In this document: one piece after another, positions 1,085 to 15,014 of the stretch
Numbering within the stretch: the stretch's first letter is position 1
How the letters are laid out: each line of letters starts with the position of its first letter
DNA from: a virus
IMG/VR virus record: IMGVR_UViG_3300035670_001211
Span: 1-24,266 of that record
Strand: one strand, 5' to 3'
DNA length: 24,266 nt
The notes under the pieces: generated by a model
What the model was told of the DNA's origin: nothing
Seen by the model: the letters and a program-made list of their open reading frames with translations, nothing else
The model's database searches: none
Position numbers and translations under genes: made by a program

Positions 1085-3253
1085 ATGGCATCAATCATTC
1101 GTATTAAGCGTTCCACGACTGCTGGAGATCCAGCTACCCTTGGTAGTGGCGAGTTAGCATACTCGGCAGCCGACTATTCTGCCGTATCTGGTGGTGGTAG
1201 ACTTTACGTTGGTATCGGAACAGAGACAGGTGGCAACGCTGCTAATCATATCGTTATCGGTGGTCAGTACTTTACCGATATGCTCGATCACAACAAAGGT
1301 ATTTTAACAGCATCTTCTGCCCTTGTTACTGACGCCAATAGTAAACTTGACAATCTTAAAGTTGACAATCTTGACCTGAATGGTAACACACTGTCAGCTA
1401 CAGACGCAAACGGAAACGTAGTTCTAGCGCCAAATGGAACAGGAACTGTTGATGTTTCTTCTAAGCGTATTACCAGTCTTGCTGATCCAGTAGGCAATCA
1501 AGACGCAGTTACTCTTGCTTACTTCAATGCCAACGCAACAAATGACGAAGAAGTCCAAGATCTTGTTGCTGGTCAAATCGTAACTAACGGAACACACTCT
1601 GGTATCTCAGCAACTTATGACGATGCTGGCGATGGTGCTATCGATCTTTCTCTGACAACAACAGGCGTAACAGCTGGTGCATATGGCGCAGCAGGTTCGG
1701 TTGGAACTTTCACTGTTGATGCTCAAGGTCGTTTGACTGCTGCTTCGAACGTAACAATTGACATCACTGCTTCTCAAGTTTCCGACTTCACCGAAGTTGC
1801 TCAAGACGTTGCTGGTGCACAAATTGCAACCAACGGAACACACTCTGGCATCTCTGCTACCTATGATGACGCAGGCGATGGTGCTATCGATCTGTCTCTG
1901 ACAACAACAGGTGTTACTGCAGGTTCTTACGGTTCGACAACTGCTATCCCAACATTTACTGTTGATGCTCAAGGTCGTTTGACTGCAGCTGGAACTGTTA
2001 ACGTCGCAACTACCCTTGGTATTGCTGGCGACACAGGAACTGATAGTGTTGATCTTCTTTCCGACACACTGACAATTTCTGGTGGCGAAGGTATTGACGT
2101 AGCAGTTACAGATAACACAATTACTATTTCTGGCGAAGATGCTTCAACAAGCAACAAAGGTGTTGCTTCTTTTGCTGACGCAAACTTTACAGTTTCTTCT
2201 GGTGCTGTTTCTGCTAAGAGCATTACTCTTGGTTCGTCAACACTGTCTCTTGGTTCGACAACTACAGACATCGCTGGCGTAACATCTCTTGCTGTTGATA
2301 ACATCTCTATCGATGGTAACGAAATTTCTTCGACAGACGCAAATGGCAATATCTCTCTGAATCCTAACGGAACGGGAACTGTTGCTGTTAACTCTGCAAG
2401 AATTACAGGTCTTGCTGAACCAGTTAACGCTGATGATGCAGCAACTAAAGGTTATGTTGATGCACGTGCTGCTGGTCTAGATCCAAAGGCATCTGTTCGT
2501 GTCGCAACAACTGCTAACATCACACTGTCTGGTACACAAACAATTGATGGCGTGGCATTAAATGTTGGCGATCGTGTTCTTGTTAAAGATCAAACAACTG
2601 GTTCTCAGAATGGTATCTACGTAGTTGCGTCTGGCAGCTGGTCACGTGCTTCCGATATGGACGAGCCAGCAGAAATGACAGCTGGTGTGTTCTTCTTCGT
2701 TGAAGAAGGTTCTGCAAATGCTGACGCTGGTTTCGTTATCACTACTGACAATCCTATTGTTGTTGGAACTGACGCAGTTACCTTTACACAATTCTCTGGC
2801 GCTGGTCAGATTATTGCTGGTGATGGACTGTCTAAGTCTGGTAATACATTGTCTGTTAATGTTGCAAATGGTATTGAAATCTCTGGCGACAATGTTCAAC
2901 TGGCATCGTCAGTTGCTGGTGATGGTTTAACATACAGCTCTGGTGTTCTAACAATCGGTGGAACATCGAATAGAATCGCAGTAAATGCTGATAGCATCGA
3001 TATCGCTTCGACTTATGTTGGTCAATCGTCTATCACAACTCTTGGTACAATTACAACTGGTGTTTGGAACGGAACAACTATTGCTGCTGCTTACGGTGGT
3101 ACTGGTTTATCTTCCTATGCTGTTGGTGATTTGATTGTTGCTAATGGCTCTACAAGTTTAAGCAAGTTGGCTGTTGGAACTTCAGGTAAAGTTCTTCAGT
3201 CGAACGGAACAACTCTAGTATACGGCGACATTGATGGTGGAACATACGCCTAA
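1085..3253 (+). CDS. Large repeat-containing tail fibre-like structural protein
   Basis: A 722-residue protein with a GGAG site at 1071-1074. The N-terminus (IIRIKRSTTAGDPATLGSGE, then LAYS) is the short beta domain that begins many cyanophage and marine T4-like fibre proteins and recalls the N-terminal domain of the phage major tropism determinant. Residues ~156-310 hold two copies of an 82-residue unit (THSGISATYDDAGDGAIDLS, then FTVDAQGRLTAA). A second module (NGTGTV, then RITxLAxPV) occurs twice, near residues 115-140 and 430-455. Residues ~455-580 carry a known fibre domain (AATKGYVDARAAGLD, then DRVLVKDQTTGSQNGIYVV). The C-terminus has YGGTGLSSY and GKVLQSNGTTL repeats found in long fibres. 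No enzyme motif is visible. It is probably a trimeric fibre; whether it is a long tail fibre, short fibre or head fibre cannot be told. Confidence 0.8.
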   Translation: MASIIRIKRSTTAGDPATLGSGELAYSAADYSAVSGGGRLYVGIGTETGGNAANHIVIGGQYFTDMLDHNKGILTASSALVTDANSKLDNLKVDNLDLNGNTLSATDANGNVVLAPNGTGTVDVSSKRITSLADPVGNQDAVTLAYFNANATNDEEVQDLVAGQIVTNGTHSGISATYDDAGDGAIDLSLTTTGVTAGAYGAAGSVGTFTVDAQGRLTAASNVTIDITASQVSDFTEVAQDVAGAQIATNGTHSGISATYDDAGDGAIDLSLTTTGVTAGSYGSTTAIPTFTVDAQGRLTAAGTVNVATTLGIAGDTGTDSVDLLSDTLTISGGEGIDVAVTDNTITISGEDASTSNKGVASFADANFTVSSGAVSAKSITLGSSTLSLGSTTTDIAGVTSLAVDNISIDGNEISSTDANGNISLNPNGTGTVAVNSARITGLAEPVNADDAATKGYVDARAAGLDPKASVRVATTANITLSGTQTIDGVALNVGDRVLVKDQTTGSQNGIYVVASGSWSRASDMDEPAEMTAGVFFFVEEGSANADAGFVITTDNPIVVGTDAVTFTQFSGAGQIIAGDGLSKSGNTLSVNVANGIEISGDNVQLASSVAGDGLTYSSGVLTIGGTSNRIAVNADSIDIASTYVGQSSITTLGTITTGVWNGTTIAAAYGGTGLSSYAVGDLIVANGSTSLSKLAVGTSGKVLQSNGTTLVYGDIDGGTYA
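1553..1764 (+). repeat. Fibre repeat unit 1 (246-bp spacing)
   Basis: First copy of an in-frame repeat in the large fibre gene. Matching points lie exactly 246 bp (82 codons) before those in the second copy. A 29-nt stretch at 1712-1740 is identical to 1958-1986, while other parts differ at synonymous positions. Confidence 0.9.
1799..2010 (+). repeat. Fibre repeat unit 2 (246-bp spacing)
   Basis: Second copy of the 82-codon unit. Protein identity is high through THSGISATYDDAGDGAIDLS and FTVDAQGRLTAA. The linker after SYG differs from the first copy (STTAIP against AAGSVG). Confidence 0.9.
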
Positions 3254-3270
3254 TAAATAGACTTATTAGG
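3249..3270 (+). promoter_or_regulatory. Inverted repeat over stop codon and ribosome binding site; overlaps a late-promoter-like AATAAATA
   Basis: A perfect 8-bp inverted repeat, CCTAATAA (3249-3256) / TTATTAGG (3263-3270), with a 6-nt loop, spans the stop codon of the large fibre gene and the start of the AGGAG site (3269-3273) of the next gene. The same stretch contains AATAAATA (3252-3259), 7 of 8 matches to the late promoter. It may be an RNA hairpin that modulates translation, a weak late promoter giving a very short leader, or both. The sequence alone does not decide. Confidence 0.45.
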
Positions 3271-3278
3271 AGTATAAC

Positions 3279-3743
3279 ATGTCCACTGCAATTAAATTAA
3301 AACGAAGTGGAGTTGCTGGTGAAGCACCAGCCTCCCTTGAGTATGGAGAGGTAGCGTTAAACTACGCTGACGGCATTCTTTACTATAAGAATGGCGCTGG
3401 TGAGATTGTCGCCCTTTCAACTGGAGAAGGTGGCGGTGGAACAATTGGCAATACATTTTCACGTGTTGCTGTTAGTGGTCAATCAACAATTGTAGCAGAT
3501 AGTTCTACTGATACTTTAACAGTAGAAGGCGCAGGATTAGTAAGTGTATCAACAAACGCATCAACAGATACGTTAACTGTTGGATTAGCAAGTTCGATTC
3601 CATTCTTTAAACAAGATGGATCGCAAGTGGGTGTTGCTTTGCAATCAGAAGCAGGTCCACTTTCTACGCTTACTTCCTTAATCTATCTGCCATTTAGATT
3701 GTCTGACGGAACAGACGTAACAACATTAAGAATTTCGGTGTAA
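3279..3743 (+). CDS. Fibre-like structural protein with IKxKRS N-terminal domain
   Basis: A 154-residue protein with AGGAG at 3269-3273. The N-terminus (MSTAIKLKRSGVAGEAPASL, then GEVALNYADGILYYKNGAG) is the same domain family as at the start of the 1085 gene and is common in fibre proteins of T4-like marine phages. After a glycine linker (GEGGGG) come two related strands (SSTDTLTV and NASTDTLTV), then a C-terminal segment ending FRLSDGTDVTTLRI. It is short for a full fibre, so it could be a fibre adaptor, a tip protein or a trimmed paralogue of its neighbour. The next gene starts 3 nt after its stop, so they are co-translated. Confidence 0.7.
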   Translation: MSTAIKLKRSGVAGEAPASLEYGEVALNYADGILYYKNGAGEIVALSTGEGGGGTIGNTFSRVAVSGQSTIVADSSTDTLTVEGAGLVSVSTNASTDTLTVGLASSIPFFKQDGSQVGVALQSEAGPLSTLTSLIYLPFRLSDGTDVTTLRISV

Positions 3744-4803: not shown

Positions 4804-5526
4804 ATGGCACGCAATGTCTATTTCACTCATGGAACTCGAAACGAGCAACTCTTAATTGAGGACTTGATTATCGAGTCGTTGTCCATTTATGGGCAGGACT
4901 TCTTTTACATTCCACGCACGCTGGTAGCAAAAGACGAAATCCTTGGCGAAGATCGTCTGAGCGAATTTAAATCAGCATTCCCAATTGAAATGTATTTCGA
5001 GAACATCGATTCGTTCGATGGTCAGGGTGCGTTCATTCAAAAGTTCGGATTGATGATGGAACAGTCGGCTACGCTTACAGTAGCCAAAAGACGATGGGAA
5101 CAACTTGTAGGTCGCTTTGGAGTGACCACTATACCTTCTCGTCCAAATGAGGGAGATTTACTCTATTTTCCTCTCACAAAAGGTCTTTTTGAGATCAAAT
5201 TTGTTCAACATCAAGACCCTTTTTATCAGTTAGGGAAACTCTACGTCTACAAACTACAGGTCGAGCTGTTTCAGTATGCTTCTGAAAGAATCAATACTGG
5301 CTTACCTGCTGTTGATGTGTTCGAATCTGTTAAGACGCTTGATGTTACAGTCAATCGCCTAACAAACGAAGCAGCCACTGGTTATGTTCTTCTTGAAAAT
5401 GGAGATAACATTAAGATGGATGAACAGATTGATCAAGTTCAATCCTACGGCGACAATGCTAAGTTTGAGAACGAAGCACTTGAGATTCTTGACTTTGATG
5501 AAAACAACCCATTCGGTGAAAGATAA
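4804..5526 (+). CDS. 14: Neck protein gp14 (head completion)
   Basis: A 240-residue protein (T4 gp14 is 256) with the family's hallmarks: MARNVYFTHGTRNEQLLIED, an acidic/aromatic first half, and the GDLLYFPLTKGLFEIKFVQH stretch followed by FYQLGKLYVYKLQVELFQY. gp14 forms a ring below gp13 in the T4 neck and is the surface onto which the finished tail docks. It starts 1 nt after the gp13 stop and its TAA overlaps the gp15 ATG (TAATG), so the three neck and tail-joining proteins are made together. The assignment is supported both by sequence and by order. Confidence 0.92.
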   Translation: MARNVYFTHGTRNEQLLIEDLIIESLSIYGQDFFYIPRTLVAKDEILGEDRLSEFKSAFPIEMYFENIDSFDGQGAFIQKFGLMMEQSATLTVAKRRWEQLVGRFGVTTIPSRPNEGDLLYFPLTKGLFEIKFVQHQDPFYQLGKLYVYKLQVELFQYASERINTGLPAVDVFESVKTLDVTVNRLTNEAATGYVLLENGDNIKMDEQIDQVQSYGDNAKFENEALEILDFDENNPFGER

Positions 5527-6257
5527 TGTTCGGAACTACCTACTATCACTCTCACATTCGTAAGTCTATTGTTGCTTTCGGCAATCTGTTTAGCAACATT
5601 AAGATCGAGCGTAAACTCAAGGATGGTTCTGACTCAACTGTTCAAACAATCAAAGTTCCTGTTTCCTATGCGCCAAAAGAGAAGTGGCTTGTTCGTGTTG
5701 AGCAAGACCCTACGCTAGAAAACCAAACCTATACTGTTCTTCCAAGACTTTCCTTTGAGATGATGTCAATGACTTATGACTCATCAAGAAAGTTAAATCG
5801 CTTCAATCAAGTGAAAGAAAACGCTGAGGCTGGAAGAATCAATAAGCAGTTTACCCCAGCGCCATATAACATTGGCATTGCGCTTCACTGCTTAACGAAG
5901 ACACAGGAAGATGCTCTTCAAATTATTGAGCAGATTATTCCTTACTTCAATCCAGAATACACACTGGCGATAAATACGATTCCAGAAATGGGAATTAGTA
6001 CGGACGTTCCAGTAATCCTAAATAGTGTTAGTATTCAAGACGACTACGACGGAGACTTCCAATCACGTCGTTCAGTTATTTACACTTTGGATTTTACAAT
6101 GAAGATTAATCTGTTTGGACCAGTATCTACGCAAGGTGATATTCGTAAGGTTCTGGTTAACACAACTGACGAGCAAAGAAATTATACTGCTGAGGTTGGA
6201 CCAACAGATACCCCTGCGAATTTTACAGTTGATGAAGATTGGACAGACAACTTCTAA
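5526..6257 (+). CDS. 15: Tail sheath stabiliser and completion protein gp15
   Basis: A 243-residue protein matching T4 gp15 (272 residues): FGTTYYHSHIRKSIVAFGNL, then APKEKWLVRVEQDP, LPRLSFEMMSMTYDSSRKLN and IALHCLTKTQEDALQIIEQI. In T4, gp15 forms a hexameric ring at the head end of the tail, stabilising the sheath and connecting to gp14. The start ATG overlaps the gp14 stop by one base. In T4 the next gene is 16 (small terminase); here it is followed instead by a fibre gene after a 10-nt gap. Confidence 0.92.
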   Translation: MFGTTYYHSHIRKSIVAFGNLFSNIKIERKLKDGSDSTVQTIKVPVSYAPKEKWLVRVEQDPTLENQTYTVLPRLSFEMMSMTYDSSRKLNRFNQVKENAEAGRINKQFTPAPYNIGIALHCLTKTQEDALQIIEQIIPYFNPEYTLAINTIPEMGISTDVPVILNSVSIQDDYDGDFQSRRSVIYTLDFTMKINLFGPVSTQGDIRKVLVNTTDEQRNYTAEVGPTDTPANFTVDEDWTDNF

Positions 6258-6267
6258 GGATTAAGAA

Positions 6268-7491
6268 ATGGCAAAACAGACAATTAACATCGGAACAGTA
6301 GCGAATGATCGAACAGGCGATCCTTTACGCACTGCTGGCGATAAAATCAATGACAACTTCGACGAGATCTATGCTGCGTTTGGTGATGGATCTACTCTTA
6401 CCGCACCAAGCAGTTTTGATCAAGATTTAAATACAGACGACAGCCCAAACTTTGTTAATCTTGGATTGGCAGGTACGTCAGGAGCAGGCTACGCCACGTT
6501 ATCTGTTACCATAGATAGAGATTTCTACATAGGTCTTAACGACACATCAACAGGAGCCAAAACATTCCAATTTGAAAGAGATGGTAGTTTTCTTCTTGAA
6601 GGATCAATATATGTGGACGGTAATATCTATGGTGGTGCTGGAAACAGATTGTATCTGTCAGGCGACGAAGGTGATGGTTCGCCGAACATAAACATACCAA
6701 ACTCCATAAATGGAGCCAGTACACCCATCGCTATCGACAATCAATTTGGTGGTGGTATACAAATTCAAACTAGTACTGGCAATTGGCTATTCGACGACAC
6801 TAGAATATTACACTTTCCAAGTTCTACTGCTGATGATTATAACATCGGCGAAAGCGTAGATGGTTTTAATATTCGTAGCGACGCAACATTTGGCATCGTA
6901 ACAAATTCTAGTACCACACCAATTACATGGACGTTCGGCGATGATTCTATTTTAACATTCCCAGATGGTGGTCAAATTTTCAACACTGCTGGAGAACTTG
7001 GACTACAGGCAGATCTTGATGGAAATGTAAGTATTACCACTTCTGACTCATCAGACAGTTATGTAACATTTTTCAATTCCGATGGTAGTATTGCTCTTGG
7101 TGGAAGTTTAACATTCTTAGATTCTTCTGTTCAAACTACTGCGTTCGTAGAAAACATATACACTTTTGTTTCTGGCGACGGAACTGACTACACTGTATCT
7201 GGTCCAGGAATTGATTCTACCAATCAATTAGATCCTACGCTGATTGTTTATCGTGGTCATACCTATAAGTTTACAAACAATGCGACTGGTCACCCTGTTG
7301 AGTTTCTAAACTCTTCAGACAACTCAGCGATTTCTAGAATTATCTCCTCAACAGGAGCAGCTGCAAACGTAGCTCAAGTTGGAGAAACTGTAACATTTAC
7401 TGTTCCGCTAGATGCTACACCAGGAAACACATATCTTTACAGATGTACAGCTCATCCTGGAGCTATGCTCGGAACAATTACTGTAGCATAA
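6268..7491 (+). CDS. Fibre-like structural protein with C-terminal cupredoxin-like domain
   Basis: A 407-residue protein with AAGGA at 6256-6260. The N-terminus (KQTINIGTVANDRTGDPLRT, then AGDKINDNFDEIY) is a domain common at the start of fibre and baseplate-linked proteins in T4-like marine phages and is shared with the next gene. The middle is beta-rich with GNIYG and PDGGQI strands and a DSSVQTTAFV motif typical of fibre shafts. The last ~110 residues look like a cupredoxin: a PTLIVYRGHTYKFTN strand, NATGHPVEF with His342, and a C-terminal YRCTAHPGAMLGTITV with Cys393, His396 and Met400. These would be the four ligands of a type 1 copper site. Similar tails occur in other phage structural proteins. 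Whether copper is bound is unknown; it may be a structural beta-sandwich only. Confidence 0.75.
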   Translation: MAKQTINIGTVANDRTGDPLRTAGDKINDNFDEIYAAFGDGSTLTAPSSFDQDLNTDDSPNFVNLGLAGTSGAGYATLSVTIDRDFYIGLNDTSTGAKTFQFERDGSFLLEGSIYVDGNIYGGAGNRLYLSGDEGDGSPNINIPNSINGASTPIAIDNQFGGGIQIQTSTGNWLFDDTRILHFPSSTADDYNIGESVDGFNIRSDATFGIVTNSSTTPITWTFGDDSILTFPDGGQIFNTAGELGLQADLDGNVSITTSDSSDSYVTFFNSDGSIALGGSLTFLDSSVQTTAFVENIYTFVSGDGTDYTVSGPGIDSTNQLDPTLIVYRGHTYKFTNNATGHPVEFLNSSDNSAISRIISSTGAAANVAQVGETVTFTVPLDATPGNTYLYRCTAHPGAMLGTITVA

Positions 7492-7500
7492 GGATAAAAA

Positions 7501-8922
7501 ATGTCAAAGCAAACGCTAAACATCGGTGTAACAATTAATGATGGCACAGGTGATACGCTTCGTCAAGCAGGTACGAAAATCAATGACATGTTCGCTGAGA
7601 TCTATACTCAGTTCGGAGATGGCACAAACTTAAATACTGCGACTGGCATTCCTAGCGTTTCGGCTGACCCTATTCCTGCTCTTGGTGGTAATCTAGATCT
7701 CAATAACAATTCAATTGTTGGTGTTGGTAATGTCAATATTACTGGTGCGTTAAGTGTAACTGGTGATATTACAACATCAAGTGGAAATTTCAATGCTGCT
7801 AACATTAATGTCTCAGCAGACTTAGATGTTGGTGATGACTTAGATGTTGGTGGGGTAGGTTACTTCAATCAACTTACTGTTACTGACACATTTAACGCTG
7901 CTAACATCGCAACACCAGGAACACTGACAGTCGGTGAAGATGGTTATTTCTTTGGTAAGATAACATCGAATGGTTCTGGTTCTATCATTCGTTTTAATCA
8001 CGCAACCTTTGATGACTTTTTCAACCCAACAAACACAAGCACATATCTAAATCCACTGACATATAAAGGTGGTCTTGCTTACGCTGATGATACAAATAAA
8101 GTTTACTTTGCTGGCGATTCGGGATGGCAAACATTAGCAAGAGAAGATTCGCCTTCTCTCTTTGGTGTTCCTACTACATCAGATCAATCAGTAGGAACAC
8201 GTGTTTCTGATGGAACAGATCAAATTGCGAACAGTCGTTATGTTCGCGCAGTTGCTGATGAATTATACACTGAGATTGATTTAAAAGCACCAATTGATTC
8301 GCCTTCGTTTACTGGCATTCCTTTAACACCCGATCAAACAACAGGAACACGTGCTTCTGACGGAACATATCAACTTGCTAATAGCAGATATGTTAGAGAA
8401 GTTGCTGATGAGATTTACACAGAAGTAGATCTAAAAGCATACATCGATTCTCCTGTTTTTACTGGTAATCCTCAAGCGCCAACAACAGCAACAGCTGATA
8501 GAGACGAGTCTATTGCGACAACTAGATATGTCAAGAATAACTTAGATTCTTATGCAACTCTTGAGTCGCCTGCTTTAACAGGAACACCAACAACTCCAAC
8601 CGCATCTCAGGGAACAAATAATACACAAATTGCAAACACACAGTTTGTTACAACAGCAGTTGGTGCGCTTGCTAATTCAATTAACAATCTTTTAACAGGA
8701 TACGCTACACTTAGTTCGCCAACATTTACTGGCTCACCAAGAGTTCCAACAGCACCAGTAAACGACAACTCAACAATTATTGCTAACACTGCATGGGTCC
8801 AACGAGAGTTTGGATATGCAAATGTTCCAATGTGGGGTGGCGCAAGAAAATATGTGAGTTATAGTGCTCCATCTAGCGGAACAGGCAATGATGGAGATAT
8901 CTGGTTCCAACTAGAAAATTAA
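7501..8922 (+). CDS. Tail fibre protein with five tandem tail-fibre repeats
   Basis: A 473-residue protein with AAGGAT at 7490-7495. The N-terminal domain (KQTLNIGVTINDGTGDTLRQ, then AGTKINDMFAEIY) is a paralogue of the one in the preceding gene and probably docks both proteins to the same partner. Next come shaft-like repeats (LDVGDDLDVGG). From residue ~216 to ~436 there are five copies of the phage tail fibre repeat (SPxFTGxPxxPT, then a spacer, then IANTxxV), spaced 50, 50, 39 and 50 residues. The C-terminus (KYVSYSAPSSGTGNDGDIWF) is a common fibre ending. It is most likely a trimeric fibre. No chaperone or enzyme domain is visible. Confidence 0.82.
   Translation: MSKQTLNIGVTINDGTGDTLRQAGTKINDMFAEIYTQFGDGTNLNTATGIPSVSADPIPALGGNLDLNNNSIVGVGNVNITGALSVTGDITTSSGNFNAANINVSADLDVGDDLDVGGVGYFNQLTVTDTFNAANIATPGTLTVGEDGYFFGKITSNGSGSIIRFNHATFDDFFNPTNTSTYLNPLTYKGGLAYADDTNKVYFAGDSGWQTLAREDSPSLFGVPTTSDQSVGTRVSDGTDQIANSRYVRAVADELYTEIDLKAPIDSPSFTGIPLTPDQTTGTRASDGTYQLANSRYVREVADEIYTEVDLKAYIDSPVFTGNPQAPTTATADRDESIATTRYVKNNLDSYATLESPALTGTPTTPTASQGTNNTQIANTQFVTTAVGALANSINNLLTGYATLSSPTFTGSPRVPTAPVNDNSTIIANTAWVQREFGYANVPMWGGARKYVSYSAPSSGTGNDGDIWFQLEN
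8146..8808 (+). repeat. Five tandem tail-fibre repeats in the fibre gene
   Basis: The conserved SP-x-(F/L)-x-G codons begin at 8146, 8296, 8446, 8563 and 8713. Spacing is 150, 150, 117 and 150 bp, all multiples of three. The first three copies are closest to each other (shared RVSDGTDQIANSRYV / RASDGTYQLANSRYV and LYTEIDLKA / IYTEVDLKA segments), which points to recent duplication. The 117-bp unit lacks 11 codons. Confidence 0.88.
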
Positions 8923-8931
8923 AGTTTAACA

Positions 8932-11415
8932 ATGCCTTATTCTTTGACGCTTGGTTATACTGGCGATACTAGAACGTATCGTGTTCCAGATCGTGTTAGA
9001 AATGGAACGATTGACTACACACTCGTCGGTGGTGGCGGTGGTGGGGGAGGCGCTGACGCAGCTGGTCGTGGTGGTGATGGCACAAGCGGATCTATTGTTT
9101 CTGGTAGAATCACTGTTCAAGGTGGCGATTTAATTGAAGTTGCTGTAGGTGGAGGTGGTTCAAGAGGAAGAACAGGCGTAAGAGGAACTGGTGGTGCTGG
9201 TGGTCAATCGTTTTCTGAATTCGTAGGTGGTGATGGTGGTGGTGCGGCACCAATTGGAGTTTCAGGATCAGGTGGCGGTGGCGGTGGCGCTACCGTAATC
9301 AAAGTAAATGGATATCCTGTTGCCGTAGCAGGTGGTGGCGGTGGTGGAGCAGGTGGTAGCTTCCAAAGTCATGTCACAGAAACTGTTAGAAGAAGTGGTG
9401 GTTCAAAAAACACCAAAGGTCAAATCGGTGGCTACTATGAAGGCGATGGTGGCGGTGGCGGTGGTGGAGGCGGTGGTGTCATTGGTGGTAGTGGAGGTGC
9501 AGCAGGTGCTGACTACAATTTTAGCAGCAGAAAAGCCACATGTGGTGCTATGGGAACTTCTAGAGGTTCTACAATTTTCCCTAATGGAGATGATGTAAAA
9601 ACTACCAATAGAGTGAATAGCACAGCAGGATATGGTGGTTCTGGTGCAACAGCAAACGATCTTGTCAGAACATTAGTAGCTGAATACATAAAATTCCCAA
9701 CTCACTCAGACTATCGTTGGGGTTCGCATATGAACTCTTATGCGGTTTGGGGCGACCACCAAAAAACACCTACTTTTGAATCAACAGTTGTTAATGTTCA
9801 ATTTCCAGGTGGACCTGTAACATTTCAAATCTCAGCAGATAACTACGGTGAAGTAAGAATTGATGGCAGTAAGGTAGTATCAACTACAACTTTTACAGGT
9901 AGTGCTACTAAAACATTAACCATTGATGCTGGTAAACATGAGATAACACTTTCTGGATATAATGTCGGTTCAGTTTCAAGCGGAAACCCAGCTGGTATTT
10001 CAGTATCAATTCATAAAGGCAAAAGCGCAAGCGGAGTTCCTTTTTGGCACTCAAGACAAAGACACATTTCTTCTTTTGTTGAACAAACTACAGGTGGTCA
10101 GGCAAACGACAATGCTACTGACGGCAACGCAGGTCTTGCGGAAATGGTGTTTAATCTTACACCAAGAGATATTTTAGAAAAAGACGGATCTAATTGGAAA
10201 CGTGTTAAAGAAGTTTATGTAAAAGAAAGTGGCGTTTGGAAACCATGCGCCGACGTGTTTGTTAAAGATGGAAGAGAATGGATCAAGTCTTTTTATCGTG
10301 GAGACTTTACAGTTTCCTTTAGTTCAACATCATCAGGATTTGGTGGACCAGGATATGCTGGGGTAATTTATTCATACCTCACACCAATTGTAATTGCTCC
10401 TCCACCAGAGCCAACAAATCCTGTTATTACTGTTCCACCTTCACCACAAATTACTGCTAATATTAGCGGTCCATCTGAATCTGGTAACGGAGAAGATCAA
10501 TTTAATCTATCTCGTCCTGGTCCAGACGCTGGTGAGTATAACTATACTGTTACTGCATCTAATGGTGCGCAAATCAACGAGTTTAGTGGAAACTTAGCAA
10601 CTGGTAAACTTTACAATGGTAAAAATCCTATACGAGCAGCAATCAATTTAAGAACTCCGCACCCAGCAACTACTGTTACATTTAGAATATCTAGAAATGG
10701 GTATACAGATTTCGTTGAATCTGTTAGCGTAAGAGAAAGAAATATTGTGGTTGTTCCAGAACCACCTGTAGTAGTAACTCCTGTATATGATGAAATTATT
10801 GATATTCCTTCCGTGTTAGAGGTTGGTCAATCATTTACAGTAGGTGTTACAGGTGGTGCGCCATCGACAGGATTTACATTTACTTGGAGAAATGCAAGAA
10901 CAAATGAACTTTTTTCTTCTGGTTCAGGAACACTCGATGGATCGGGCAATTTTACCAGCGGTTCGGGCAACTTTACCTACGATAGTTCCTTTGTATTGAC
11001 AGTTGTGTTTGCTGGTTCGGGTAATGTTAAAACAGCAAGCGTAACAGTTGCTCCTGTTCCTGTTGAGACATTCGACGAGAGCGTACAAATTATTGGTGAG
11101 TATCAGGTTGGGCAAGTTCCGACATTTAGAATTACTGGTGGTAAAGCAAACACATCATTCAACTTTGACTGGGAAAAAGTTAGAAACGAAAACCAAACAG
11201 GTAGTGGCTCTGGTACATTAGACGCAAATGGTGCGTTTGAGGGAACAGGTGGAATCAGTAGCCCCTTTGAATCTGCCGACCTCTATAGAATTAGTGTTGG
11301 ATTTGCTGGTTCAGGTAATGTTAAAACAGCAGACATTATGGTTGGAGAACCACCTGTTGTTGTAGTAACATTTGATCAGTATCTTAATACGATTGATTAT
11401 AGAGAAGAGCGTTAA
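8932..11415 (+). CDS. Glycine-rich adhesin-like virion protein with Ig-like repeats
   Basis: An 827-residue protein, the longest in the window. Start ATG 8932 lies 9 nt after the previous stop without a clear ribosome binding site, so coupling is likely. Residues ~33-240 are a glycine-rich domain with runs of 6-10 glycines near 33-40, 114-119, 134-139 and 173-182, resembling the glycine-rich domains of phage adhesins that pack as polyglycine helices. Residues ~285-365 look like a PA14-type beta-sandwich (DNYGEVRIDGSKVV). Residues ~422-452 have two WxxVxxxxVK hairpins (VYVKESGVWKPCADVFVKDG). A proline-rich linker (~489-505) is followed by beta domains and two Ig-like repeats (~620-710 and ~714-812). 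It is a good candidate for a receptor-binding tip protein. No enzyme motif is seen, and function is inferred from architecture and the fibre neighbours. Confidence 0.75.
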   Translation: MPYSLTLGYTGDTRTYRVPDRVRNGTIDYTLVGGGGGGGGADAAGRGGDGTSGSIVSGRITVQGGDLIEVAVGGGGSRGRTGVRGTGGAGGQSFSEFVGGDGGGAAPIGVSGSGGGGGGATVIKVNGYPVAVAGGGGGGAGGSFQSHVTETVRRSGGSKNTKGQIGGYYEGDGGGGGGGGGGVIGGSGGAAGADYNFSSRKATCGAMGTSRGSTIFPNGDDVKTTNRVNSTAGYGGSGATANDLVRTLVAEYIKFPTHSDYRWGSHMNSYAVWGDHQKTPTFESTVVNVQFPGGPVTFQISADNYGEVRIDGSKVVSTTTFTGSATKTLTIDAGKHEITLSGYNVGSVSSGNPAGISVSIHKGKSASGVPFWHSRQRHISSFVEQTTGGQANDNATDGNAGLAEMVFNLTPRDILEKDGSNWKRVKEVYVKESGVWKPCADVFVKDGREWIKSFYRGDFTVSFSSTSSGFGGPGYAGVIYSYLTPIVIAPPPEPTNPVITVPPSPQITANISGPSESGNGEDQFNLSRPGPDAGEYNYTVTASNGAQINEFSGNLATGKLYNGKNPIRAAINLRTPHPATTVTFRISRNGYTDFVESVSVRERNIVVVPEPPVVVTPVYDEIIDIPSVLEVGQSFTVGVTGGAPSTGFTFTWRNARTNELFSSGSGTLDGSGNFTSGSGNFTYDSSFVLTVVFAGSGNVKTASVTVAPVPVETFDESVQIIGEYQVGQVPTFRITGGKANTSFNFDWEKVRNENQTGSGSGTLDANGAFEGTGGISSPFESADLYRISVGFAGSGNVKTADIMVGEPPVVVVTFDQYLNTIDYREER
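10786..11367 (+). repeat. Two tandem Ig-like domain repeats (294-bp spacing)
   Basis: Two related ~95-residue domains start near 10786 and 11071. A 29-nt stretch at 11008-11036 recurs at 11302-11330 with one mismatch, 294 bp (98 codons) apart. Both encode VGQ, a central W, GSGTLD and AGSGNVKTA. Confidence 0.85.
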
Positions 11416-11417
11416 CA

Positions 11418-12989
11418 ATGGCTCTGGTATATAATGCGAATCCAAATTTAAAAGCAGCAGGAGTTCCTGTTCCTTTTAGTGCTGATCAGGTTGAAGAATA
11501 CATTAAGTGTAAGAACGATCCAATTTACTTTATCGAAAACTACATCAAGATTGTTTCGATTGATAAGGGGCTGGTTCCTTTTAAGCTGCACGAATATCAA
11601 AAGAAAATGATTCTTGGATTTCACGAGAATCGTAAGGTGATTGTGCGTGCTGCTCGACAAATTGGTAAGACCACTACGGTAGCTGCTTATTTTTGCTACT
11701 ACATTTTGTTTCATGACAATAAGACACTGGCTATTCTTGCTAACAAAGCAAGCACTGCTAGAGAAATTCTTAGTCGTGTTCAAATGGCATATGAGCATCT
11801 ACCGAAGTGGTTACAGCAGGGTGTTACTACCTGGAACAAAGGCGACCTTGAGTTAGAAAATGGGTCACGAATTATTGCTGCTTCGACATCGTCAAGCGCA
11901 ATTCGTGGATACTCTATTAACATTCTATTCCTCGATGAGTTTGCGTTCGTTCCTACTAACCTCGCTGACGAATTCTTTACTTCTGTTTACCCAACGATTT
12001 CTTCTGGTGAAACATCTAAGATCTTTGTGGCGTCAACGCCAAAGGGTATGAACCACTTCTATAAGATGTGGACAGAAGCAGAAGAAGGTATTAATGGATT
12101 TCACCACCTATTCGTTCATTGGTCTGATGTTCCAGGTCGTGATAAGAAGTGGGGCGATGATCAAAGACGTGTTCTTGGTGAAATTAAGTTTGCCCAGGAA
12201 ATGGATTGCGAGTTCCTTGGTTCCTCAGATACGCTTATCTCTGGTACCAAGTTGAGAAACATTCCATTCATTCAGCCAATCTATTTGAGCGACACGCAAG
12301 ACTTTACTATATTTCAAAAGCCAGTTCCTGGTAACAATTATGTAATGACTGTTGACACATCAAGAGGAACAAGCCAAGACTATTCGGCGTTCACTATTGT
12401 TGATGTTTCAAAAGTACCGTATACGGTAGTGGCTAAGTATAGGAATAACACAATTTCTTCTATGCTATATCCCAATGTAGTGTTTAAGATTGCCAAGCAA
12501 TACAATGATGCTTGGGTATTAGTTGAATCAAATGATGTTGGTGCTCAAGTTGCTGACATCCTATATCATGAGATGGAGTATGAAAACACTCTAATGTCAA
12601 ACAAAGACACAGTGACGAACTGGGGATCTAGTGGTTTGGGCATTAGAACAACGAATAAAGTTAAGAGGATTGGATGTTCAACCCTCAAGACTCTAATTGA
12701 GGAAGACAAACTTGTAATCAACGACTACGATATTCTTTTTGAGTTGTCGAATTTTATAAGTAAAGGTGGCACATACAAAGCAGATGATGGATACAATGAC
12801 GACCTTGCTATGTGCCTAGTTCTTTTCTCATACCTAACAACCCAACCTATCTTTAAAGAGTTGGGCGACGAAGATTTAAGGCAAAAATTGTTCGAAGATA
12901 AAATGAGACAAATTGAAGAAGAATTGACCCCAATTGGCTTTTTCGACGATGGACGGGAACCTGAAGAAGAAAAAATTTATAATTTCTGA
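11418..12989 (+). CDS. 17: Large terminase subunit gp17 (DNA packaging motor)
   Basis: A 523-residue protein (T4 gp17 is 610). The N-terminal ATPase has Walker A RAARQIGKTT (77-86, Lys84), Walker B ILFLDEF (169-175, Asp173 and catalytic Glu174) and coupling motif VASTPKG (204-210). The C-terminal RNase H-like nuclease shows Asp313 in MTVDTSRGTSQDYSAF, Glu370 in WVLVESNDVGAQ, and Asp461/Asp462 in GYNDDLA. It cuts concatemeric DNA and pumps it through the portal gp20. It starts 2 nt after the adhesin gene, and its usual partner gp16 is not next to it. All key residues are present, so it should be active. The N-terminus is shorter than in T4, as in many marine relatives. Confidence 0.96.
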   Translation: MALVYNANPNLKAAGVPVPFSADQVEEYIKCKNDPIYFIENYIKIVSIDKGLVPFKLHEYQKKMILGFHENRKVIVRAARQIGKTTTVAAYFCYYILFHDNKTLAILANKASTAREILSRVQMAYEHLPKWLQQGVTTWNKGDLELENGSRIIAASTSSSAIRGYSINILFLDEFAFVPTNLADEFFTSVYPTISSGETSKIFVASTPKGMNHFYKMWTEAEEGINGFHHLFVHWSDVPGRDKKWGDDQRRVLGEIKFAQEMDCEFLGSSDTLISGTKLRNIPFIQPIYLSDTQDFTIFQKPVPGNNYVMTVDTSRGTSQDYSAFTIVDVSKVPYTVVAKYRNNTISSMLYPNVVFKIAKQYNDAWVLVESNDVGAQVADILYHEMEYENTLMSNKDTVTNWGSSGLGIRTTNKVKRIGCSTLKTLIEEDKLVINDYDILFELSNFISKGGTYKADDGYNDDLAMCLVLFSYLTTQPIFKELGDEDLRQKLFEDKMRQIEEELTPIGFFDDGREPEEEKIYNF

Positions 12990-13076: not shown

Positions 13077-15014
13077 ATGCCTTTCCAACTATCTCCAGGC
13101 GTAGCAGTAGTTGAAAAAGATTTTACATCGATTGTTCCAGCGGTAGCGACATCGCCTGGAGCATTTGCTGGCGTATTTCAGTGGGGTCCAGTTATGGAGC
13201 CAACGATCGTTGCATCCGAAAACATTCTCGTAGAGCGTTTCGGTAAGCCATCTGATGACGCAGAAGTGTTTCAATCTTTCTTCTCTGCAGCTAACTTCCT
13301 GTCATATACAAACAACCTGCTAGTTACTCGTGTTGAAACAACAGATATGAAAAACGCATCCTGCACAGGATTTGTTACTTCTGTTACAGTAAGCGCTGGT
13401 GGTACAGGTTACACCGCTACACCAACTGTTCAGTTTTCTAGTCCAGATACTGTCGGTGGAACACCAGCAACAGGTGTTGCAACATTAAGCGGTGGTGCAG
13501 TTACTGCTATTACTATTATCAATCCAGGTTCTGGTTATACATCAGCTCCTACTGTTTCTGTTACTCCTGCTACTGGTGATACAACTGGTACTGGCGCAAC
13601 AGCAACTGCTGTTATTGAAGCATTCGCAGCGCCATTAATTAAAAACGAAGATGATTACGAAACAAACTATGCTAACGGACAAGCTGCTGTTGGTATGTTT
13701 GCTGCTAAGTATCCAGGATCGCTTGGAAACTCTTTATTAGTTTCTTTTGCTGATTCTACATCTTATGCTGCTTGGGCATATAGAGATCTTTTCGATTCTG
13801 CTCCAGGTACATCTGCTTATGTAGCAAATCTTGGTGGACAAAATGACCAGTTACATATTGTTGTTATCGACGAGGATGGACTATGGACAGGCACACCAGG
13901 ATCCACGCTCGAGAAATACTCATATGTTTCTAAAGCATCAGACGCTGTAAAATCTGATGGAACTAACAACTACTACAAAGATGTTGTTAATCGCACATCG
14001 AAATACATTTCTTGGATGGATCATCCAGCCTCTGTTAACTGGGGAACAACTTCTGCAACAACAACATTCGACACGTTGACTGCTGCTAGAACACTTTCTT
14101 TAGTTGGTGGTGTTGATGACCACACAGCTACCGAAGGTCAGTACCAATCTGGTTACGCTCTGTTTGCTAATGACGAACTGTATGATGTTGCCCTCATCGT
14201 TATGGGTAAAGCAACAGCCACAACAGTTACCTTCGTTATCAACAACGTAGCTGAAGTTCGTAAAGACTGCGTCGTGTTTGCATCCCCACAGGATGTATCA
14301 ACTGGCGACATTCTAATTGGTAACGGATCAGATATTGCTGATGACATCGTAGCATTCCGTGCTGCTCTACCATCAACATCTTATGCTGTTCTTGACTCTG
14401 GTTTCAAATATCAATACGACCGCTACAACGACAAGTATCGTTGGATTGCACTGAACGGCGACATCGCTGGTCTGTGTGCTCGTACTGATTACACAAATGA
14501 CCCATGGTTCTCTCCAGGTGGATTTAATCGTGGTCAGGTTAAGAATGTTGTTAAGCTGGCTCACAATCCAGATAAAACAAATCGCGATACTCTTTACAAG
14601 AAGGGTATTAACCCAGTTGTTACATTCCCAGGACAGGGAACAGTACTGTTCGGCGACAAGACTCTGTTGTCTGCACCAAGTGCATTCGACCGTATCAACG
14701 TGCGTCGTCTGTTTATCGTTCTCGAGAAGGCAATTGCTACAGCTGCTAAGTTCCAACTGTTCGAGTTCAACGATTCGTTCACTCGTGCTCAGTTCCGTAA
14801 CCTAGTAGAGCCATTCCTTCGTGATGTTCAAGGTCGTCGTGGTATTACTGACTTCCGTGTCAAGTGCGACGAAACAAACAACACTGGTGAAGTCATTGAT
14901 CGCAATGAGTTCGTCTGCGATATCTTTATCAAACCAGCTCGCTCGATCAACTTTATCACTCTGAACTTCATCGCTGCTCGTTCTGCTGTCAGCTTCGATG
15001 AAATCGGTGCATAA
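13077..15014 (+). CDS. 18: Tail sheath protein gp18
   Basis: A 645-residue protein (T4 gp18 is 659) with AGGAG at 13065-13069. The N-terminus (QLSPGVAVVEKDFTSIVPAV, then GAFAGVFQWGP) and C-terminal half (NRGQVKNVVKLAHNP, RRLFIVLEKAIATAAKF, EPFLRDVQGRRGITDFRVKC, and INFITLNFIAARSAVSFDEI) are classic T4-like sheath. Hexamers stack around the gp19 tube and contract to drive the tube through the cell envelope. Residues ~98-180 are an insert of two related beta motifs (VTVSAGGTGYTATPTVQFSS and ITIINPGSGYTSAPTVSVTP) unlike the core; see the separate entry. The gene heads the gp18-gp19-gp20 series behind the late promoter at 13002. Confidence 0.95.
   Translation: MPFQLSPGVAVVEKDFTSIVPAVATSPGAFAGVFQWGPVMEPTIVASENILVERFGKPSDDAEVFQSFFSAANFLSYTNNLLVTRVETTDMKNASCTGFVTSVTVSAGGTGYTATPTVQFSSPDTVGGTPATGVATLSGGAVTAITIINPGSGYTSAPTVSVTPATGDTTGTGATATAVIEAFAAPLIKNEDDYETNYANGQAAVGMFAAKYPGSLGNSLLVSFADSTSYAAWAYRDLFDSAPGTSAYVANLGGQNDQLHIVVIDEDGLWTGTPGSTLEKYSYVSKASDAVKSDGTNNYYKDVVNRTSKYISWMDHPASVNWGTTSATTTFDTLTAARTLSLVGGVDDHTATEGQYQSGYALFANDELYDVALIVMGKATATTVTFVINNVAEVRKDCVVFASPQDVSTGDILIGNGSDIADDIVAFRAALPSTSYAVLDSGFKYQYDRYNDKYRWIALNGDIAGLCARTDYTNDPWFSPGGFNRGQVKNVVKLAHNPDKTNRDTLYKKGINPVVTFPGQGTVLFGDKTLLSAPSAFDRINVRRLFIVLEKAIATAAKFQLFEFNDSFTRAQFRNLVEPFLRDVQGRRGITDFRVKCDETNNTGEVIDRNEFVCDIFIKPARSINFITLNFIAARSAVSFDEIGA
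13371..13620 (+). repeat. Inserted GGxGYTxxPTV repeat domain within the sheath gene
   Basis: About 83 codons (residues ~99-181 of gp18) carry two copies of a motif, VTxxTVxxGGxGYTxxPTVxF and VTAITIINPGSGYTSAPTV, joined by a Gly/Ala/Thr-rich link. This 'GGSGYTSAPTV' unit is common as a repeat in phage and marine bacterial surface proteins. Its low-complexity Thr/Gly composition differs from the flanking sheath sequence. Confidence 0.7.

Follow-up and report, generated by a model that had tools for sequence, protein, structure and literature searches.

We describe a repeat module inside the tail sheath protein of a virus, located where the T4 sheath protein gp18 has its domain I. The window, by which we mean the whole stretch of DNA that was analysed, is a virus record of 24,266 bases, and its gp18 gene encodes the module as two similar units of about 40 residues, each with the signature GxGYTxxPTV. 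The reading that we favour, and that we hold to be rather probable, is that this segment is a mobile six-stranded barrel made of two units, sitting in the T4-type domain I position and acting as a docking or coating surface as in T4. The sequence, borders and position of the module, its variable copy number, its alternative sites and its spread to other proteins are established. The position was already known and probably so was the fold; the repeat that occupies it is mobile, has no name that we found, and varies in copy number in an unusual series.

Both PF17482 and PF04984 exceed their Pfam cut-offs in the window gp18, and the conserved N- and C-terminal sheath core is present. The protein matches PHROG 23 ('tail sheath') over residues 2-643 (E 5.8e-127), its best PDB sequence match is to T4-type sheaths (E 2e-93), and it aligns structurally to 9f4a_SA (Z 29.7, 519 aligned). 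An earlier note on this DNA had pointed to a two-copy GGxGYTxxPTV domain at about residues 99-181 of gp18 and had suggested an alignment to T4 and marine relatives in order to fix the borders. The domain is indeed there as a repeat domain of its own that differs from the conserved sheath core, as that note had said, and the alignment places the insert at residues 99-183 (13371-13625, residue 99 beginning at base 13371). These borders, uncertain by a few residues, were set from relatives with an empty position, two of which (L056 and L076) have 0 residues between the equivalents of window residues 98 and 184. Residue 98 aligns to T4 98 and residue 183 to T4 190, an insertion within domain II as in T4. 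The features are as follows.

13077 to 15014, plus strand: gp18 tail sheath gene, 645 aa, from Pfam, PHROG and PDB sequence matches.
13338 to 13370, plus strand: sheath segment upstream of the insert (about residues 88-98), the equivalent of the short N-terminal piece of T4 domain II, from the alignment to T4 and the domain limits in PMC3004832.
13371 to 13625, plus strand: two-unit module (residues 99-183) in the T4 domain I position, from the borders given by empty-position relatives, AF2 and VIA-align.
13374 to 13493, plus strand: repeat unit 1, residues 100-139, signature GGTGYTATPTV at 13398-13430; 41.3 bits with a unit HMM whose training set includes both window units.
13500 to 13616, plus strand: repeat unit 2, residues 142-180, signature PGSGYTSAPTV at 13524-13556 and near-invariant G171 at 13587; 41.0 bits with the same unit HMM and the same caveat.
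13626 to 15014, plus strand: sheath remainder downstream of the insert, residues 184-645.

The two signatures correspond to residues 108-118 and 150-160 of the window gp18. The similarity of the two units exceeds chance, their alignment score of 56 being equalled in 2 of 5000 shuffles of unit 2, while at the DNA level the copies are weak repeats only. Apart from gp18, none of the 25 coding sequences of the window that were scanned with the unit HMM holds a copy above 5 bits. The low third-position G+C of the insert (0.106 vs about 0.35 in the flanks) was considered as a sign of recent transfer. When fourfold codons were matched by amino acid, the insert had 3 of 67 against 8.4 expected (p 0.034), and across the filled loci the same test gave a lower value in 8 of 56 and a higher one in 1 at p 0.05. 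Since the matched difference is small, the base composition was rejected as a sign of recent transfer.

In T4, domain I comprises residues 98-188, a six-stranded barrel with a helix that is set into domain II, and it points outward, outside the sheath-sheath contacts (PMC3004832). The outward orientation that had been proposed for the window domain thus agrees, by analogy, with the corresponding position in T4 gp18 (PMC3004832). The idea of an insertion foreign to T4-type sheaths did not hold, as the segment sits where T4 has its domain I and, among solved structures, T4 domain I is also the closest fold found. The opposite view, that of a normal T4 sheath domain present in all relatives, fits in part: the position is normal and the fold probably so, but the position is empty in 12 of the 67 relatives measured.

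The relatives were the best 80 of more than 599 matches, so the shares given here are not natural frequencies. Only sheath ORFs with a start methionine were measured, and L078, in which the flank aligner misplaced a border, was left out, giving 68 rows (the window plus 67 relatives). Within these best 80 of more than 599 matches, the domain I position is empty (0-3 residues) in 12 of the 68 sheaths and filled (more than 30 residues) in 56. With a unit profile trained on the very positions counted, the 56 filled positions of this best-80 sample hold two units in 14 cases, four in 31, eight in 6 and an odd number in 5, that is, an even number in 51 of 56, which fits a domain made from two units. 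The odd counts are one unit in two sheaths, three in two and seven in one. Judged by length, four of these (L044, L054, L035 and L068) would contain 2, 2, 4 and 8 units, one unit of each falling short of the threshold, and therefore L007, with 123 residues, is the sole plain three-unit case.

The composition of the longer arrays is not that of a pair simply duplicated. Among the 31 four-unit arrays, the first unit resembles window unit 1 in all 31 and the second does so in 23, and the third and fourth resemble unit 2 in 28 and 29, respectively. An ABAB duplication was thus not seen, and a four-unit array is not necessarily one barrel repeated in a row. In the six arrays of eight units that were tested, the pattern is mixed. 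Unrelated segments occur between or after the units in L026, L027, L033, L034, L036, L037, L039 and L043. In L026, L027 and L034 a different segment lies within or after the array, with the pattern ...W..ttaY..g..V.....LYtV..aGT....P.HtsG..., and no Pfam family was found for it in L026 and L034; we take it to be reminiscent of carbohydrate-binding modules. The sheath of Synechococcus phage S-WAM1 (L089, 932 aa) has a long insert of different sequence at the domain I position, with no GxGY units by the profile. In another relative, Proteus phage PM2 (L114), the annotation splits the sheath gene into two ORFs that overlap (1740-2729 and 2726-3736).

The module also occurs elsewhere in the sheath. 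L060, L075, L079 and L081 have an empty domain I position and carry two units instead at about residues 230/235 of the window gp18 (13764-13781). Xanthomonas phage X1 and Stenotrophomonas phage Smp14, the only ones with units among the first ten named sheaths fetched, have two units at about residues 311/319 (14007-14033), a site that is less sharp, as the left flanks of X1 and Smp14 leave 16 and 19 residues unaligned and 15 were skipped in the right flank of Smp14. All three sites fall, in the alignment to T4, within T4 residues 83-365, which is the protease-resistant, exposed part of T4 gp18 (PMC3004832). In Serratia phage MQ-4 the module lies at residues 150-222 of a 474-aa sheath with Pfam sheath matches. 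The sheaths of MQ-4, X1 and Smp14 thus resemble that of the window in holding the same two-unit module, but at other sites.

A tree of 78 sheath cores was built with the insert excluded and T4 left out (quick IQ-TREE, SH-aLRT only). By parsimony the module state, in classes set by the analyst from unit counts, changes 13 times on this tree, where the minimum possible is 6 and the shuffled mean 41. The seven sheaths with eight units (one of them with seven detected) form one supported clade. The rows nearest the window have 182 and 213 residues at the domain I position, and L056 and L076, in which it is empty, share a 44-row clade with the window. Judged from these sequences, the module is gained, lost and relocated repeatedly among sheaths. 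In this sense, it could be a near-neutral passenger, a mobile domain without a selected role that exposed loops accommodate, and its presence in many unrelated proteins is in line with that. The open frames of the measured sheaths do not count against a passenger because only open frames were measured. But arrays of about 330 residues persist across the supported clade of seven at a heavy cost per sheath subunit, and we regard a mere passenger as very unlikely.

Both the barrel and its resemblance to T4 domain I are predicted from models. In the AF2 model of the whole sheath (38 sequences, pLDDT 79.8), each unit of the insert contributes three strands, six in all, and the model of the insert alone (67 sequences, pLDDT 87.6, pTM 0.75) also has six. 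When the insert model was compared with 307 PDB chains by VIA-align, 6 chains reached Z of at least 2, and the four entries listed are all T4-type gp18, aligned at residues 98-190; no Ig-like fold is among these four, though the module may still have one. The best is 3foa_C (residues 99-186, Z 5.6, rmsd 2.9, 73 aligned), and the others are 3fo8 (Z 5.2), 3j2m (Z 5.2) and 9f4a (Z 4.6). A Z of 5.6 is middling, and its weight comes from the lack of any other listed entry together with the identical position. A Foldseek search of PDB with the insert model returned no match at E of 0.001 or below, and its top two rows are T4 gp18 (9mkb) with E 1.3 and 2.0 and probability 0.35 and 0.44. The helix of T4 domain I is absent from the insert in both AF2 models.

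For the sequence comparison with T4 domain I, L103 was left out of the T4 set (its domain I is unalignable past about residue 140), and eight near-identical rows were removed from the broader T4 set, leaving 16. For the insert, hhalign gave P 0.04 against T4 domain I with 12 sequences, P 0.17 against full-length T4 gp18 and P 0.01 with the broader T4 set; the matches at P 0.01-0.04 span 18-21 columns with probability 1-4%. Of 24 windows along T4 gp18, five had P below 0.05 (0.011-0.028), all of them holding T4 residues of about 101-120 and aligned at 'PGSNY', the remaining 19 had P of at least 0.28, and reversed controls at least 0.24. A forced global profile alignment of the insert with T4 domain I gave nothing sensible. 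No internal repeat was found in T4 domain I, whose halves do not detect each other (P 0.22). At the level of sequence, homology of the module with T4 domain I is therefore suggested but not significant.

From the position and the modelled fold, common descent of the module and T4 domain I is nevertheless likely. The two share the sheath position, six strands and structural alignments of Z 4.6-5.6, whereas T4 domain I (PDB 3foa, 3fo8 and 9mkb) has a helix, is charged (10 K/R and 13 D/E of 93 residues) and shows no detectable internal repeat, and the window module is a clear two-unit repeat, uncharged, with 0-8 units in relatives. Because the models have no helix and the module does not have the charges of T4, we do not count it as a strict T4 domain I member. 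An independent domain, unrelated to T4 domain I, may instead have entered the same permissive loop by chance. The weak sequence signal and the entry of the same module into two other loops would fit this explanation, as would the unrelated segments that the position also holds (S-WAM1 and parts of L033, L036 and L039), but it is at odds with the T4-type gp18 entries, aligned at domain I, that make up the listed matches with Z of at least 2 among 307 chains. We find such a chance arrival unlikely and retain common descent.

Outside the sheath the module is widespread. By itself, the insert segment has hits in 17 PHROG families with E below 1e-3 (best 2.6e-11, tail fibres), among them tail fibre, head closure, virion structure and baseplate families. 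A viral search with the segment found at least 79 further module-bearing ORFs, near-copies included, and our own profile of the sheath C-terminus is found in at least 12 of those 79, a lower bound because some ORFs are cut. In bacterial and archaeal genomes the module is present at 78 loci, in none of which the same profile found a sheath C-terminus. Ten of these bacterial and archaeal ORFs were scanned with Pfam: six have a family above the cut-off and three have no match at all. The families are lambda-like tail tube (L193), DUF3383 (L170), DUF2589 (L192), SusD (L147), beta-propeller families (L132) and Big_5 with a copper oxidase domain (L121). The module of L147 falls within the matched range of the SusD starch-binding protein, and in L193, L170 and L192 Pfam reports two matched stretches each, so that by sequence the module likely splits the host family. 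In L129 the N-terminal region of gp18 domain III was matched below the cut-off, and this ORF may be part of a sheath. BFVD gave 44 matches at E of 0.001 or below, including a P22 gp10-like protein, cyanophage fibres and a baseplate hub protein. Even unit counts were found in 95 of the 108 complete ORFs of the wider survey (40 of 46 plus 55 of 62, near-copies included). In a Dehalococcoidia genome (L119, 1115-8383), an ORF cut at its 3' end contains 42 units of the repeat over about 2300 residues. The earlier impression that the segment resembles repeats of surface-exposed proteins is in agreement with these results, since tail-fibre, baseplate, neck and bacterial proteins, a SusD protein among them, carry this repeat as well.

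This family has no curated name that we found. Neither Pfam nor NCBIfam yielded a family that covers the 67 aligned modules (66 of 80 unit pairs listed, plus the window segment); weak hits involve one or two members each, such as BACON (E 0.001), CBM_AftD (0.073), Big_5 (0.051) and PKD_3 (0.034), one of the 67 modules in each case. The window segment itself matches 0 Pfam families at E of 0.1 or below, Ig-like and carbohydrate-binding families included, and a PDB sequence search with the module profile gave nothing credible. The letters 'GYTSAP' were not found in the literature, and no description of this repeat in a tail sheath was found in titles and abstract openings of the openly accessible literature; reports under subscription may exist. 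The accessible part of PMC12270204 does not name gp18. Extra sheath domains, mostly Ig-like, that sit away from the tube are thought to have been added during evolution, and adhesion through weak carbohydrate binding, or stability, has been proposed for them (Evseev et al. 2022, PMC9230969). These are also peripheral added domains, but the accessible part of that paper has no description of this repeat, its copy series or its site moves (the word 'repeat' occurs 0 times). Promiscuous Ig-like domains and tandem BACON repeats are likewise exchanged between phage proteins or arranged in tandem (PMC6949934; PMC9230969), but they belong to a different sequence family, and the window module is found in the sheath, at three alternative sites among relatives.

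The presence of the module in tail-fibre families and in a SusD protein may suggest weak adhesion, an idea already raised in the earlier note, where barrels would bind glycans on host or particle surfaces through many low-affinity contacts, similar to the carbohydrate binding proposed for the extra Ig-like sheath domains (PMC9230969). However, the alignment of the 67 modules does not point to a conserved surface site: conservation reaches 90% or more at G17, Y20, G59, G61, Y62 and G79, that is, only at the four glycines and two tyrosines of the signature. The window segment does not match any Pfam carbohydrate-binding family either. We consider adhesion possible, though on the whole improbable.

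The filled positions are also poor in charge. Lysine and arginine account for 127 of the 9769 residues in the 56 filled positions (median 0.6% vs 8.5% in cores), acidic residues for 2.4% vs 10.1% and threonine plus serine for 33% vs 16% (medians), and the window insert, of 85 residues, has no K/R, two D and one E. A passive coat or spacer could thus be envisaged, an inert, uncharged shell poor in trypsin sites that would protect the tail or prevent sticking without any partner. The range of 0-8 units among relatives (best 80 of more than 599 matches) is in line with such a shell, as is the finding that T4 domains I and II together form a protease-resistant fragment (PMC3004832), but the low charge may be a trait of the repeat family regardless of the carrier protein. 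A coat with no partner therefore appears to us a tentative explanation, with the odds against it.

In the reading that we favour, a docking or coating surface of the T4 kind, one barrel would project from every sheath subunit, of which the T4 tail has 138 copies (PMC3004832), and would take no part in contraction. T4 domain I faces outward and has no share in the contacts between sheath subunits; a barrel in its place would therefore lie outside the contraction, and so it could be lost, multiplied or moved. By analogy its job would be that of T4 domain I, to dock and coat along the length of the tail, with the baseplate or, if this phage has them, fibres that fold back as the partners. In T4, the mutations G106S, S175F and A178V block fibre retraction (PMC3004832), and the letters G106, S175 and A178 fit T4 G107, S176 and A179 once the methionine is counted. 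The ends of the VIA-align range pair model residue 9 with T4 99 and model residue 88 with T4 186. Interpolating from these ends, T4 G107 would pair with the near-invariant G109 of window unit 1, and T4 S176 and A179 would adjoin the pair of the near-invariant G171 of unit 2. In this sense, the dock-side loops would be two turns, GxGY in unit 1 and GTGAT in unit 2, although the conservation of glycine at G109 and G171 may be due to structure only. Four- and eight-unit arrays would form a thicker, nearly charge-free coat.

Other genes of the window also deserve a mention. The gene for the sheath stabiliser gp15 (PF16724) lies at 5526-6257 and the large terminase at 11418-12989; between them the ORF list shows no obvious small terminase gene, where T4 has gene 16. 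The region 6268-11415 contains three structural-looking genes, two with gp9/10-like N-termini and a third without a Pfam match. The one at 6268-7491 combines a T4 gp9/10-like N-terminus (PF07880, E 1.9e-10) with a C-terminal match to the plastocyanin/azurin copper-binding family (PF00127, residues 325-406, E 2.2e-6), which gives this probable virion protein a cupredoxin-like end. At the left edge, 12-401 encodes a Laminin G/concanavalin A-like lectin domain (PF13385, E 5.6e-13), which may be the last part of a larger surface protein.

The odd-looking insert of the window sheath can be explained as a variable outer domain at a known place, and it ties this sheath to a large repeat family. As a speculation that we put forward with little confidence, T4 domain I itself would be a diverged copy of a very widespread two-unit barrel plugged into exposed loops of many unrelated phage and bacterial proteins, with the sheath as a display rack whose load is tuned to 0, 2, 4 or 8 units and the signature loops as a shared docking face. 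If the link to T4 is true, what is known of fibre docking in T4 gives a candidate role to a module of many virion proteins. Furthermore, the natural sheaths with 0, 2, 4 and 8 units constitute a ready series for probing the function of the exterior of contractile tails.
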